DNA from: Bacteroidales bacterium
Lineage (GTDB): Bacteria > Bacteroidota > Bacteroidia > Bacteroidales > Muribaculaceae
DNA length: 64,000 nucleotides
NCBI GenBank assembly: GCA_014800795.1
Contig: JAAVFL010000009.1
Location: 84,277-148,276 of the forward strand
Direction: 5' to 3'
Position numbers and translations under genes: made by a program. A model generated the notes under the pieces. That model did not search any database. It was not told the DNA's origin and worked only from the letters and a program-made list of their open reading frames with translations. Positions 26,787 through 64,000 of this stretch are shown piece after piece. Positions within the stretch are counted from its first letter, which is position 1. Every line of letters starts with the position of its first letter.

Positions 26787-28226
26787 ATGAAGAAATTCTA
26801 CACATTGATTCTTGCCGTAACCGTTGCTTTCGCCGCATCGGCAACATCTGCTCTGGGCAAAGTCGAAAGGACCGCCCTCAAGGCAAACCCCACTTTCTCC
26901 GTGAATAAGGTGGCTGCTGCCAAAGCGCCCGCAACCAATCTTCAGGGCGTGGAGAAAGAAACCGCTAATTCCGCAGCCCGCATCAAACCCACGCAGAGCT
27001 GGGAAGATTATGGCACTGTCACCTATACCGAAGCTCTCATGACTTCATTCGGAGGTGATGCTCAGGATCTTGAAGTAACCATCCAGATCGACGAAAGTAA
27101 TTCCAACCATTTCCGCCTCGTCAATCCCTACAAGAACTATAACAACATCTTTGAGGATGTTAAGATTGACGACACTACCGACTATTATATGGAATTCACC
27201 ATCACCGGCGATTACGTAACCTTCGAAAACACTAAGATAGGCCTTTCCGTACAGGATGAAGACGGCTCTTGGCTTCCCATCGGATTCTCCACACAGGCAG
27301 CCGGTATGATTGACGCATTTGGAATCACCGCCGATGTACTCGCATCTGTTTACCCCGATGCAGTCGGAATCATTGAAAACAATGTTATTACATATCCTGC
27401 TTTCCTCACCGATGAGGATCCCGATACCGGTAAAGTAGAGAAATACTACAACTTCCTCATCTGGGTAGGAAGCGATGATGACATCTGGGCAGGCGGTAAC
27501 ATGGACGGTTCTTTCCAGATTATAATGCCCGGCGGCGTAGCAGATCCCAATGCAGGTTGGAAAAACTGCGGAGAAGGCACACTTACCGATGGTCTCCTCT
27601 GCAACTTCTTCAATAACGTAGATCCCCAGACCATGACTGTAAGCTTCCAGCAATCAACAAGAGTCGACGGAGTTTACCGCATCATCAATCCCTACAGCAC
27701 CTGGCAGTCACCTTACACGGATGTTACCTACAACAATTCCGTTACCCGTTACATGGTTATCCACTGCGAAGAAGCTCCATACGTATGGGTTGAAGACTTC
27801 GCTCTCGGCCTTGTAATTACTGACGAAGGTGAAATCAAAGCGACCTCACAGTTGGGTGAATTATGTCAGAAATACGGAGCCGAAACAGTCGCATCAGTTT
27901 ATCCCGAGGGAGTCGCCACAATGGAAGGAAGAACTATTACATATGGGCCTACCATGGAAGCGGAAATTAGTGCCGGTGAGATCGAGACACTCCCCAACTG
28001 GCTCGGATACATCAACGAAGCTGACGGATATTTCGGAGGCACCACATACCCGATGGTTATCGAACTTCCCGATCCCGCAGGTATCAATGATGCAGTTGCC
28101 GACTTCGACAACAACGCTCCGGTTGAATACTTCAATCTTCAGGGTGTGCGCGTAGCAAACCCCGCTGCCGGTGAACTCGTAATCAAGCGTCAGGGTGCCA
28201 ACGTAAGCAAAACCGTTGTCCGCTAA
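26787..28226 (+). CDS. Secreted protein with two internal repeat domains and a sorting-like C-terminal tail
   Basis: ORF; signal peptide; SWEDYGTVTYTEALMTSFF-type and GWKNCGEGTLTDGLLCNFF repeats; tail EYFNLQGVRVANPAAGELVIKRQGANVSKTVVR. Confidence 0.75.
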   Translation: MKKFYTLILAVTVAFAASATSALGKVERTALKANPTFSVNKVAAAKAPATNLQGVEKETANSAARIKPTQSWEDYGTVTYTEALMTSFGGDAQDLEVTIQIDESNSNHFRLVNPYKNYNNIFEDVKIDDTTDYYMEFTITGDYVTFENTKIGLSVQDEDGSWLPIGFSTQAAGMIDAFGITADVLASVYPDAVGIIENNVITYPAFLTDEDPDTGKVEKYYNFLIWVGSDDDIWAGGNMDGSFQIIMPGGVADPNAGWKNCGEGTLTDGLLCNFFNNVDPQTMTVSFQQSTRVDGVYRIINPYSTWQSPYTDVTYNNSVTRYMVIHCEEAPYVWVEDFALGLVITDEGEIKATSQLGELCQKYGAETVASVYPEGVATMEGRTITYGPTMEAEISAGEIETLPNWLGYINEADGYFGGTTYPMVIELPDPAGINDAVADFDNNAPVEYFNLQGVRVANPAAGELVIKRQGANVSKTVVR

Positions 28227-28279: not shown

Positions 28280-28315
28280 AAGTAGCTGTGTCAAGATAAA
28301 CTGACACAGCTACTT
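28280..28315 (+). terminator. Stem-loop with GCTGTGTCA/TGACACAGC core
   Basis: AAGTAGCTGTGTCA-agataaac-TGACACAGCTACTT. Confidence 0.75.
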
Positions 28316-28568: not shown

Positions 28569-28789
28569 ATAAGTAAGTCATGAAAATTATTACGTATAAT
28601 ATACTTAACAGGACTTTATATCATCAGCGACATCCTTTCGCCGGATTTTACCCTTATCTTCAGTCTTTTTCGACAAGCTCAAAAGCGCAGGCGATAACGT
28701 GTAGCTCGCTACACTCCTTCATCTTCGGGCAAAATCCGACTGAAACTTTGCTCACGGATAATATAAAATAATTTCCACGACTTACTTAT
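28569..28789. repeat. Structured repeat with terminal inverted repeats (MITE-like), copy A
   Basis: ATAAGTAAGTCATGAAAATTATT ... AATAATTTCCACGACTTACTTAT termini; internal GCCGGATTTTACCC/GGGCAAAATCCGAC arms; core shared in opposite orientation with copy B at 63881. Confidence 0.85.
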
Positions 28790-29797
28790 ATGAAAATACC
28801 CATTCATAAAATAGAGAACTATACATGGATCACCAGCCTTAATGTCCTGAATGTGCCGGTTATCAAACGCTGCAACTATTTTGTGGATGATACAATTTCT
28901 GTTGATGGCGATGCTCCAAAAAAATTCATCGGTATATACGACTATAGCTTACTTGAGCATAAACATAAGTCAAACCGCAAAAACTGGATCCGTTATATCG
29001 CTAAGACCGGTCACAAATGGTATCCGTCAGAATCAATCACCGAATTGCTTATGAACAGGCTCGGGACTATTTTTGGTCTTAATATGGCTGATTCACAGAT
29101 TGCAATGATTGGAGGCCAGTTACGATTCATGAGCCGCTATTTTCTAAAATCAAACAAAGAGGAACTGGTTCACGGCGCAGATATTCTCGCCGGCTACCTG
29201 AACGAATCACCCAGATATGTAGAAGAAGTGGATCAACAAAAGATGACACGTGATTTATTTACTCTGCAGGTGATAGAGGAAGCGATAGATAATTTATTTC
29301 TATATCAGAAAGAAGAGATTCTCCACGAATTGATCCGATTAATTATATTCGATGCATTAGTTGGAAACAACGATCGTCATTTCTTTAACTGGGGAGTCAT
29401 ACGATCGGTAGATAATAGTTTTCAACCATTTTTTGCGCCAATCTATGATACAGCCCGAGGATTATTCTGGAACTACTCTGAAAACAAGTTAAAAGAGATT
29501 GTTGAACTAAACAAAACTACAGATAAGCATATTAAAAAGTATTGTAAAAGTTCACGCCCCAAAATAGGGTGGGAAGGAGAAAAGAATCCTAATCATTTTC
29601 AACTTTTCAGACAGATATATACTAACCAGTTCCATATTTCCGTTGATGAAATCAGATCAATGCTTGAATATTCAGTTCTGAAGGAAATGATTAGCGAAGT
29701 CTCGGAGAATTTCGGAACATTAATGAGTGCAAACAGAATTTTACTCATATGCAAATGTTTGGAATACAGGTTTAATGAATTAAGGAAGATATTATGA
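28790..29797 (+). CDS. HipA-like serine/threonine kinase lacking the N-terminal subdomain
   Basis: ORF 335 aa; LVGNNDRHFFNWGVI catalytic loop, APIYDTARGLFW metal-binding-like segment, SESITELLMNRLGTIFGL. Confidence 0.75.
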   Translation: MKIPIHKIENYTWITSLNVLNVPVIKRCNYFVDDTISVDGDAPKKFIGIYDYSLLEHKHKSNRKNWIRYIAKTGHKWYPSESITELLMNRLGTIFGLNMADSQIAMIGGQLRFMSRYFLKSNKEELVHGADILAGYLNESPRYVEEVDQQKMTRDLFTLQVIEEAIDNLFLYQKEEILHELIRLIIFDALVGNNDRHFFNWGVIRSVDNSFQPFFAPIYDTARGLFWNYSENKLKEIVELNKTTDKHIKKYCKSSRPKIGWEGEKNPNHFQLFRQIYTNQFHISVDEIRSMLEYSVLKEMISEVSENFGTLMSANRILLICKCLEYRFNELRKIL

Positions 29798-30180
29798 CTA
29801 AGTTTAAAAAAGTTTTTGCCCGCCTGTTCTGGTCTGAAAGCCAGAATAAAGTATTATTGAATGCAGATCATGACGCTACATTCAACATCAATCTGGGCAG
29901 ATTACATGTAGGAACTCTTCTATATTCAGATAAAATATGGTATTTCAGCTACAGTAATGACTTTAAACTCCAAAATAAGATATTACCATTGGCTAATTTT
30001 CCATCAACAGAAAAAGAATATTCAGCACGTGAACTGTGGCCTTTTTTCGCTTCACGAATACCTAGTAACGCCCAACTGCAACTTGGGCGCGAAAATCCAC
30101 AAGAAAATATAGTGACATTATTGCAAAAGTTCGGGCGCCGAACTGTTGCCAACCCATATGAATTAGATCCTGTTATATAA
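29794..30180 (+). CDS. HipA N-terminal-subdomain-like small protein (HipS-like)
   Basis: ORF 128 aa overlapping the kinase stop by 4 nt (ATGA); LGRLHVGTLLYSDKIWYFSYSNDF...LPLANFP...LWPFFASRIPS resembles the HipA_N pattern. Confidence 0.6.
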   Translation: MTKFKKVFARLFWSESQNKVLLNADHDATFNINLGRLHVGTLLYSDKIWYFSYSNDFKLQNKILPLANFPSTEKEYSARELWPFFASRIPSNAQLQLGRENPQENIVTLLQKFGRRTVANPYELDPVI

Positions 30181-30222: not shown

Positions 30223-32460
30223 ATGAAAAAGTTTTTGTTGCCGCTGATTGCACTGATAGCGGCTATGCCTCTTCTGCGTGGAGCGGAGAAAGAACCGGTA
30301 GACTATGTGAATCCTTATATCGGTAATATAAGCCATCTGCTGGTGCCGACATTCGCCACCATACAGTTGCCTCACAGCATGATGCGCATCTATCCGGCGC
30401 GACAGGACTATACCTCAGAGCTTATGAACGGACTGCCGGTGATCGTGACAAACCACCGCGAGCGCTCGGCTTTCAGCATATCGCCATGGCAGAAACCGCC
30501 GCGACGCCCCGTAGCGCAGCTCACCTGGGATCAGGAGCGCATCACTCCCTACTCATGGGATGTGGAACTCGACGACAACACGATGCGCGCACGTCTCGCC
30601 GTAAAACACCAGAGCGCTATCTACGAACTCGACTTCTACGACACTGAAAAGCCGGTATATCTCACTATCAATTCGGAAAACGGAGCTATGTGGGAGGAGA
30701 ACGGGAAAATAATGGGATACCAGTCGCTTGACGACCGGACCAAGGTATATCTGGCGGTGGAATTCGCCGAAAAGCCATCTGCTATAGGAACCCTCGTTCA
30801 TGGCGACATCACCGACGCTACACGCGCCGAAGGCCACAACGCATGTATTGTGGCGCAATACCCCGCAGGGACAGCGGCGGTGAACCTGCGCTACGGCGTA
30901 TCATTCATAAGTGCTGAACAGGCCTGCAGCAACCTGCACCGCGAACAGCCGGGCGACTTCGACCGCGAGGCCGTGGCAAAGGCCGGGCGCGACGAATGGA
31001 ACCGCACACTGTCGAACATAACTGTAAGCGGGGGAACGGAGGATCAGAAAACGGTTCTCTACACATCTTACTACCGCACATTCGAGCGTCCGGTGTGTCT
31101 GAGCGAGGATGGCCGCTACTACAGCGCATTCGACGGCGAGGTTCACCCAGACAACGGTCATCAGTTCTACTCCGACGACTGGATCTGGGACACCTACCGT
31201 GCCGCTCACCCGCTGCGCGCGCTCATCGATCCGGAAAAAGAGGAGGATATCATCGAATCATATCTGCGCATGGCCGAACAGATGGGAACCCAATGGATGC
31301 CCACTTTCCCGGAAATAACAGGCGACACACGGCGCATGAATTCAAACCACGGTGTGGCGATGGTTGCCGACGCACTCTACAAGGGGCTCGATGTCGACGC
31401 GGAGCGTGCCTATCTCTACTGCCGCAAGGGTATAGAAGAGAAGACCCTCGCACCCTGGAGCGGAGCGCCTGCAAGCGAGATCGACCGCTTTTACAGAGAG
31501 AACGGCTACATCCCCGCCTTGCGCGACGGTGAGGAAGAGACCGACCCGGCGGTAACAGGCTTCGAGAAGCGTCAGCCGGTAGCCGTAACACTCGGAACAG
31601 CCTACGACCAGTGGTGTCTGAGCCGCATAGCCTCGTTTCTCGGGAAAAAAGAGGATGCCGACAAATATCTCGGGCTGAGCTACAACTACCGCAATCTCTG
31701 GAATCCCGATACCAGGTTCTTTCACCCCAAAGATAAGGATGGAAATTTCATTGAGCCATTCGATTACCGCTTCAGCGGAGGCATTGGCGCGCGCGAGGCA
31801 TACGACGAAAACAACGGATGGACATACCGTTGGGACGTTCAACACAATTTCGCCGACCTCTGCAACCTGATGGGTGGACGCGAGGAACTGATAAGAAATC
31901 TCGACCGCACGTTCGCCGAACCGATGGGACGGGGCAAACGCGAATTTTACGAACAGCTTCCCGACCAGACCGGCAACATCGGACAGTTCACCATGGCAAA
32001 CGAACCGTCGCTCCATATCCCATACATCTACAACTATGCCGGCGCACCGTGGAAAACCCAGAAGCGCATCCGCCAGTGTCTCGAAACGTGGTTCCGCAAC
32101 GACCTTATGGGTATTCCCGGCGATGAAGACGGCGGAGGACTCACGAGCTTCGTAGTATTCTCCTCGCTCGGATTCTACCCTGTGACACCCGGTTTCCCCG
32201 TCTACAATATCGGTAGCCCACTCTTCAGCGACATCAGCGTGAAAGTTCCAGGCGGGAAAACATTCCGCATCATTGCCGAAAACTGCTCCGACGAAAACAA
32301 ATACATACAGAGCGCCACCCTCAATGGCAAAGCGTGGGACAAACCCTGGATTACACATGAGGATATAACAAACGGAGGCATACTGGAACTGAAGATGGGA
32401 CGCCATCCGAACCGTCAGTGGGGTGCATCGGCGGAAGCCGCTCCCCCATCGGCAGAATAA
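30223..32460 (+). CDS. GH92 family glycosidase (alpha-mannosidase-like)
   Basis: ORF 745 aa; YVNPYIGNISHLLVPTFATIQLPHSMMRIYP, FYSDDWIWDTYRAAHPL, NGWTYRWDVQHNFADL, MGIPGDEDGGGLTSFVVFSSLGFYPVTPG. Confidence 0.92.
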   Translation: MKKFLLPLIALIAAMPLLRGAEKEPVDYVNPYIGNISHLLVPTFATIQLPHSMMRIYPARQDYTSELMNGLPVIVTNHRERSAFSISPWQKPPRRPVAQLTWDQERITPYSWDVELDDNTMRARLAVKHQSAIYELDFYDTEKPVYLTINSENGAMWEENGKIMGYQSLDDRTKVYLAVEFAEKPSAIGTLVHGDITDATRAEGHNACIVAQYPAGTAAVNLRYGVSFISAEQACSNLHREQPGDFDREAVAKAGRDEWNRTLSNITVSGGTEDQKTVLYTSYYRTFERPVCLSEDGRYYSAFDGEVHPDNGHQFYSDDWIWDTYRAAHPLRALIDPEKEEDIIESYLRMAEQMGTQWMPTFPEITGDTRRMNSNHGVAMVADALYKGLDVDAERAYLYCRKGIEEKTLAPWSGAPASEIDRFYRENGYIPALRDGEEETDPAVTGFEKRQPVAVTLGTAYDQWCLSRIASFLGKKEDADKYLGLSYNYRNLWNPDTRFFHPKDKDGNFIEPFDYRFSGGIGAREAYDENNGWTYRWDVQHNFADLCNLMGGREELIRNLDRTFAEPMGRGKREFYEQLPDQTGNIGQFTMANEPSLHIPYIYNYAGAPWKTQKRIRQCLETWFRNDLMGIPGDEDGGGLTSFVVFSSLGFYPVTPGFPVYNIGSPLFSDISVKVPGGKTFRIIAENCSDENKYIQSATLNGKAWDKPWITHEDITNGGILELKMGRHPNRQWGASAEAAPPSAE

Positions 32461-63880: not shown

Positions 63881-64000
63881 ATAAGTAAGTCGTGAAAATT
63901 ATTTTATACTTTCAGGGAGTGTATTTTTGAGCGACTTTCGCTCGAAGATGAAGGAGTGTAGATGTCTACACGTTATCGCCTGCGCTTTTGAGCTTGTCGA
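63881..64000. repeat. Structured repeat (MITE-like) copy B, inverted relative to copy A, cut by window edge
   Basis: ATAAGTAAGTCGTGAAAATTATTTTATA terminus plus core GAAGATGAAGGAGTGTAGatgtCTACACGTTATCGCCTGCGCTTTTGAGCTTGTCGA, matching the reverse complement of 28569-28789. Confidence 0.85.

Follow-up and report, generated by a model that had tools for sequence, protein, structure and literature searches.

The window, by which we mean the whole 64,000-nucleotide stretch of Muribaculaceae DNA that was analyzed, encodes a real, conserved, and mobile two-gene Hip kinase module, the gene layout of which has already been published. The pair is probably a toxin-antitoxin or defense module in which the kinase would act as toxin and the HipS-like protein as its inhibitor, and every functional step of that proposal is drawn from homology. 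The product of gene 1 would be a pared-down HipA-like Ser/Thr kinase; in its free state, it would phosphorylate some part of the translation machinery and stop growth. Translational coupling through the shared ATGA would yield the gene 2 product, and this HipS-fold protein, the probable antitoxin, would bind the kinase at the site of HipA's own N-subdomain-1 and keep it inactive. Loss or displacement of HipS would then release the kinase. By inference, such a module may serve mobile-element stability or phage defense.

The preliminary description of the locus had proposed a kinase carrying the motifs NNDRHFFNWG and APIYDTARG, lacking an N-terminal subdomain and overlapping a smaller gene by 4 nt (Table 1). 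Both motifs and the overlap were found as stated, and the subdomain is missing because the kinase sequence starts only at its Gly-rich-loop region. The kinase matched Pfam HipA_C with an E value of 9.2e-12, above the curated cut-off, and when 28 kinases and 35 HipS-like proteins were aligned, NNDRH (residues 193 to 197) and D-x-A-R were invariant in all 28 kinases, as were K72, E85, and D188. Residue 37, a serine in the window copy, was Ser or Thr in 22 of the 28. With its catalytic residues invariant in this way, the kinase should be active. The small protein, described earlier as resembling the HipA N-terminal subdomain, did match that domain (Couple_hipA, E 8.4e-6, likewise above the curated cut-off), which was the only Pfam domain in it.

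Table 1. Features of the kinase-HipS locus, in window coordinates
Feature	Coordinates	Strand	Remark
MITE-like dispersed repeat, ~219 bp, with terminal inverted repeats	28570..28788	.	Ends beside kinase ATG
HipA/HipJ-type Ser/Thr kinase, probable toxin, 335 aa	28790..29797	+	Without N-subdomain-1
Gly-rich loop S-V-D-G-D-A-P-K, residues 37-44	28898..28921	+	G40, A42, P43, K44 invariant
Catalytic loop GNNDRHFFNW, residues 192-201	29363..29392	+	G192, NNDRH, N200, W201 invariant (28/28)
Mg-binding motif PIYDTAR, residues 217-223	29438..29458	+	P217, D220, A222, R223 invariant
ATGA stop/start overlap of kinase and HipS-like genes, 4 nt	29794..29797	+	Putative translational coupling
HipS-like protein, probable antitoxin, 128 aa	29794..30180	+
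HipS fold core, residues 28-126	29875..30171	+	From pLDDT profile
FFASRIPS segment, residues 84-91	30043..30066	+	Position equivalent to EPEC HipS FASLAPEGW

Structure prediction with AlphaFold2, followed by Foldseek searches of the PDB, gave Hip folds for both proteins. The kinase model (pLDDT 89, pTM 0.90) matched CtkA (3.7e-10), HipT of Legionella (HipT(Lp), 3.9e-7), and HipA (1.4e-6), and also HipT of enteropathogenic Escherichia coli (EPEC). The model of the 128-aa protein (pLDDT 80) consists of a core above 90 and a poorly predicted N terminus (residues 1 to 24 below 50), the latter corresponding to an extension of about 25 aa that is present in nearly all members aligned. Five PDB entries matched this protein below an E value of 0.001, and all were HipS or the HipA-N homolog HI_0666 (HipS(Lp), 4.4e-5; EPEC HipS, 2.5e-4; HI_0666, 8.4e-4); no credible match to any other kind of structure was found in the PDB. 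That the small gene is a HipN shorn of its HIRAN domain by a frameshift is ruled out, as the gap up to the gene at 30223 is too small to code for one, and is also opposed by relatives that stop at the same length.

When 84,980 species genomes were searched with the kinase alone as the query, 34 loci were found in Bacteroidota, Verrucomicrobiota, and Planctomycetota. The aligned relatives were 36 to 80% identical to the window kinase, and the intact kinases among the relatives were about 325 to 350 aa long. A HipS-like open reading frame of 119 to 158 aa lay directly downstream of the kinase in every one of the 34 loci, and the same was true of two IMG/VR contigs and three further genomes (39/39 in total), with the ATGA overlap retained in most Bacteroidales relatives. 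Conservation of the pair across three phyla far exceeds chance. Moreover, the order of kinase and then HipS was invariant in the 39 relatives, and thus a local rearrangement is ruled out. The earlier statement that no HipB-like gene accompanies the pair also held. No helix-turn-helix (HTH) gene adjoins the pair among the window open reading frames: the flanking frames (479 and 745 aa, both on the plus strand) lack HTH features, and the gap upstream contains just two frames of more than 50 aa, one of 60 aa on the opposite strand and one of 63 aa (28580 to 28771) that lies within the MITE-like repeat and is not a gene. Near the relatives there was no conserved HTH or HIRAN partner, HTH_3 being found in only 2 of 129 neighboring proteins, and together the window frames and the relatives' neighbors rule out a HipB encoded nearby. 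We note that the kinase frame of one relative (L021, 4752 to 5879) is extended at its N terminus by about 60 aa, a stretch that resembles XRE on visual inspection but in which Pfam gives no HTH. We also note that genes for 23S rRNA intervening-sequence proteins recur near the loci (L016, L033, and others), accounting for 4 of the 129 near neighbors and 3 of the 112 far genes.

The layout had been taken to be unprecedented, and that claim did not survive comparison with the literature: hipJS and hipIN were published in 2021 (PMC8262856), and PADLOC already lists the pair as PDC-M03. The hipJS system consists of a short kinase and a downstream HipS without a DNA-binding partner (Gerdes, Baerentsen and Brodersen 2021, PMC8262856). 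HipJ, which belongs to clade XI beside HipI, is the exception to the rule that the antitoxin binds DNA, and neutralization of HipJ by HipS has only been proposed (PMC8262856). The window pair is similar in that the kinase core motifs occur without N-subdomain-1, a single-domain HipS-like gene lies directly downstream, in the window as in 39/39 relatives, and the adjacent putative antitoxin is not DNA binding. At 335 aa, the window kinase slightly exceeds the length range published for the short families (279 to 321 aa). Most likely, the window pair is of the hipJS type, an assignment made by gene layout. To our knowledge, no hipJS-type pair has been tested experimentally. The main text of the hipJS paper names no Bacteroidetes and makes no mention of restriction (PMC8262856).

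The pair also resembles other known systems. The PDC-M systems belong to the defense candidates in PADLOC that are unpublished and credited to Payne et al. 2021 (PMC11811056), and both PDC-M03 profiles were matched by the adjacent window genes, PDC-M03A by the kinase (2.4e-37) and PDC-M03B by the 128-aa protein (1.6e-9). PDC-M03B is HipS-HIRAN-like, however, and the window protein matched only the HipS part, the first third of the 245-position profile, and has no HIRAN. In hipIN, the HipI kinase is followed by HipN, a HipS-HIRAN protein (PMC8262856); the window pair likewise has the kinase first and a HipS-like domain downstream but differs in lacking HIRAN, and in a kinase tree its family stood apart from HipIN-like kinases (L051 to L053; branch 3.38, support 100/99) and from HipA. 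The HipIN-like loci (L051 / L002, from the host's family, L052, and L053) encode divergent kinases, and the partner genes downstream of them are longer, with a HIRAN domain in the partners of L002 and L052. Both layouts are thus found in Bacteroidota. The hipBST systems of EPEC and Legionella share the split between kinase and HipS and the same two folds, whereas the window order is reversed relative to B-S-T, there is no upstream HTH gene hipB, and the window HipS is extended by about 25 aa at its N terminus and lacks Glu63 and Trp65. Finally, CtkA of Helicobacter pylori is the closest solved kinase by both fold and sequence profile, but CtkA stands alone, and window-type kinases always have a HipS partner.

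How a window-type HipS might inhibit its kinase is complicated by the residues just named. Both the EPEC and Legionella HipS proteins inhibit their cognate kinases (PMC10627512, PMC9325769). In EPEC, Glu63 of HipS is directed into the active site of the kinase, with Trp65 wedged in a cavity of the Gly-rich loop (PMC10627512), and in the Legionella pair, inhibition works through reshaping of the P-loop (PMC9325769). Trp65 of hipBST HipS is inhibitory and conserved in some members. By profile alignment, Glu63 and Trp65 correspond to residues 91 and 93 of the 128-aa protein. Residue 91 was Ser or Gly in 35/35 aligned HipS proteins and never Glu, and residue 93 was Ala, Ser, Gln, Asn, Gly, or Lys in all 35 and never Trp. 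Thus, inhibition is not directly transferable from EPEC. Judged from these residues, inhibition by a window-type HipS, if it occurs, must use some other contact, and by analogy a Legionella-like reshaping of the P-loop is possible.

Both genes have a GC content of 0.37 (GC at third positions, 0.39 for the kinase and 0.31 for HipS) versus 0.535 for the window, and every other long open reading frame in the window falls between 0.46 and 0.64, in agreement with the earlier observation that the pair is more AT-rich than its neighbors. Among 148 other genomes of the host's family, there was a single weak, HipIN-like kinase match. The window kinase was 64 to 80% identical to relatives in Bacteroidaceae and Prevotellaceae and 80% identical to that of L003. 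Rarity in the family and the GC contrast therefore support horizontal gain, as had been suggested from composition, and we conclude that the pair was probably acquired horizontally. Two viral contigs (IMG/VR) with the pair also encode integrase or tape-measure genes, indicating that temperate phages move the pair. The family is widespread, patchily spread, mobile, and phage carried. No close copies were found on plasmids or cultured phages, and in an empty-site comparison, neither flanking gene of the window pair was found in 13 congeners. The host genome encodes one additional, conventional HipA elsewhere.

The absence of the inhibitory Trp65 would also suit a constant regulatory or substrate-recruiting role for HipS, such that the two proteins together reconstitute a complete HipA, N-subdomain-1 being contributed in trans, to make a signaling kinase. 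The N-subdomain-1 of HipA, to which HipS is homologous, belongs to the active enzyme, and strict co-occurrence and likely translational coupling are what such a subunit would predict. The known EPEC and Legionella HipS proteins inhibit their kinases, however (PMC10627512, PMC9325769), and several loci retain HipS beside a broken kinase, so we regard a constant subunit as improbable. The kinase was broken or truncated and HipS intact at six loci (L012, L022, L026, L033, L034, and L035), some of which may reflect assembly errors, and the reverse was never seen. This bias of 6 to 0 fits a toxin held by an antitoxin, although gene length alone gives a p of 0.14. More doubtful still is that the window copy is a decaying, functionless remnant, silenced, for example, by the repeat beside its start codon. 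The MITE-like repeat, which forms the present upstream region of the pair and lies outside the module, abuts the ATG and cuts off the former upstream region, and no promoter signal above chance was found upstream of the pair. Against decay, both frames are intact, all catalytic residues are retained, and the kinase is 80% identical to that of L003. The repeat has the terminal inverted repeats AAGTAAGTCATGAAAATTATT ... AATAATTTCCACGACTTACTT and occurs again at 63881 to 64000, and the genome holds some 50 other matches to it. There are about 20 long copies in the genome, and several copies at contig ends. Farther upstream, a 15-pair stem-loop with a T-tail on the minus strand (28280 to 28315), just past a gene ending at 28226, is a possible terminator.

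Some copies of the pair are tied to restriction-modification (R-M) genes. The pair sat inside an R-M operon in 5 of the 38 loci examined, with the orders HsdM, HsdS, one open reading frame, kinase, HipS, and then AbiEi/AbiEii (L014); HsdM-HsdS-kinase-HipS-AAA ATPase (L024); and HsdM-kinase-HipS-HsdS (L030, the kinase of which had no match among viral contigs). In the remaining two, the stop codon of a Type IIG enzyme (L027, identical to L048) or of an MmeI-type IIG enzyme (L050) overlaps the kinase start at ATGA. R-M Pfam matches were found in 7 of 129 near neighbors versus 1 of 112 far genes (one-sided Fisher p 0.05), and the single far match is best explained as the HsdM of L014 itself. Open-access literature yielded no papers tying HipA kinases to R-M operons, and HipA-HIRAN genes near defense systems were noted in a 2025 paper (PMC11706625). 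The R-M linkage is suggestive of an anti-phage role, and only that. PrrC is encoded within a Type IC locus and becomes active when restriction is inhibited (PMC12707154), and by analogy the kinase-HipS pair might be an abortive-infection backup that senses inhibition or loss of its partner DNA modification system, as PrrC does for EcoprrI. Solitary copies, such as that of the window, would then sense another trigger or have lost their partner. The five operons and the near-far contrast point in that direction, but an R-M neighbor is absent from 33 of the 38 loci and from the window locus, the contrast is borderline, and defense genes cluster anyway; we consider a general backup of this kind unlikely, if somewhat less so than a constant HipS subunit. 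A narrower, portable version, with about the same small chance as that subunit, would have the translation-arresting kinase tied to Type I or IIG modification genes in some lineages, a phage that inhibits or removes the modification system freeing the kinase in PrrC-like fashion, and HipS inhibiting without the Glu63/Trp65 wedge. We note that a DprA-type gene (L050, 10424 to 11491; ShosA defense profile, 1.8e-59) follows the Type IIG-kinase-HipS operon and that a TIR protein is among the neighbors of L006; the window locus has no R-M, Abi, or TIR neighbors.

If the pair is a kinase toxin with a HipS inhibitor, the family could reveal how a HipS inhibits its kinase in the absence of the residues on which EPEC HipS relies. 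The set of about 40 loci includes intact pairs from bacteria of the gut and of the environment and shows carriage by phages. Ultimately, where the pair is linked to an R-M system, inhibition of that system is a concrete candidate for the trigger.
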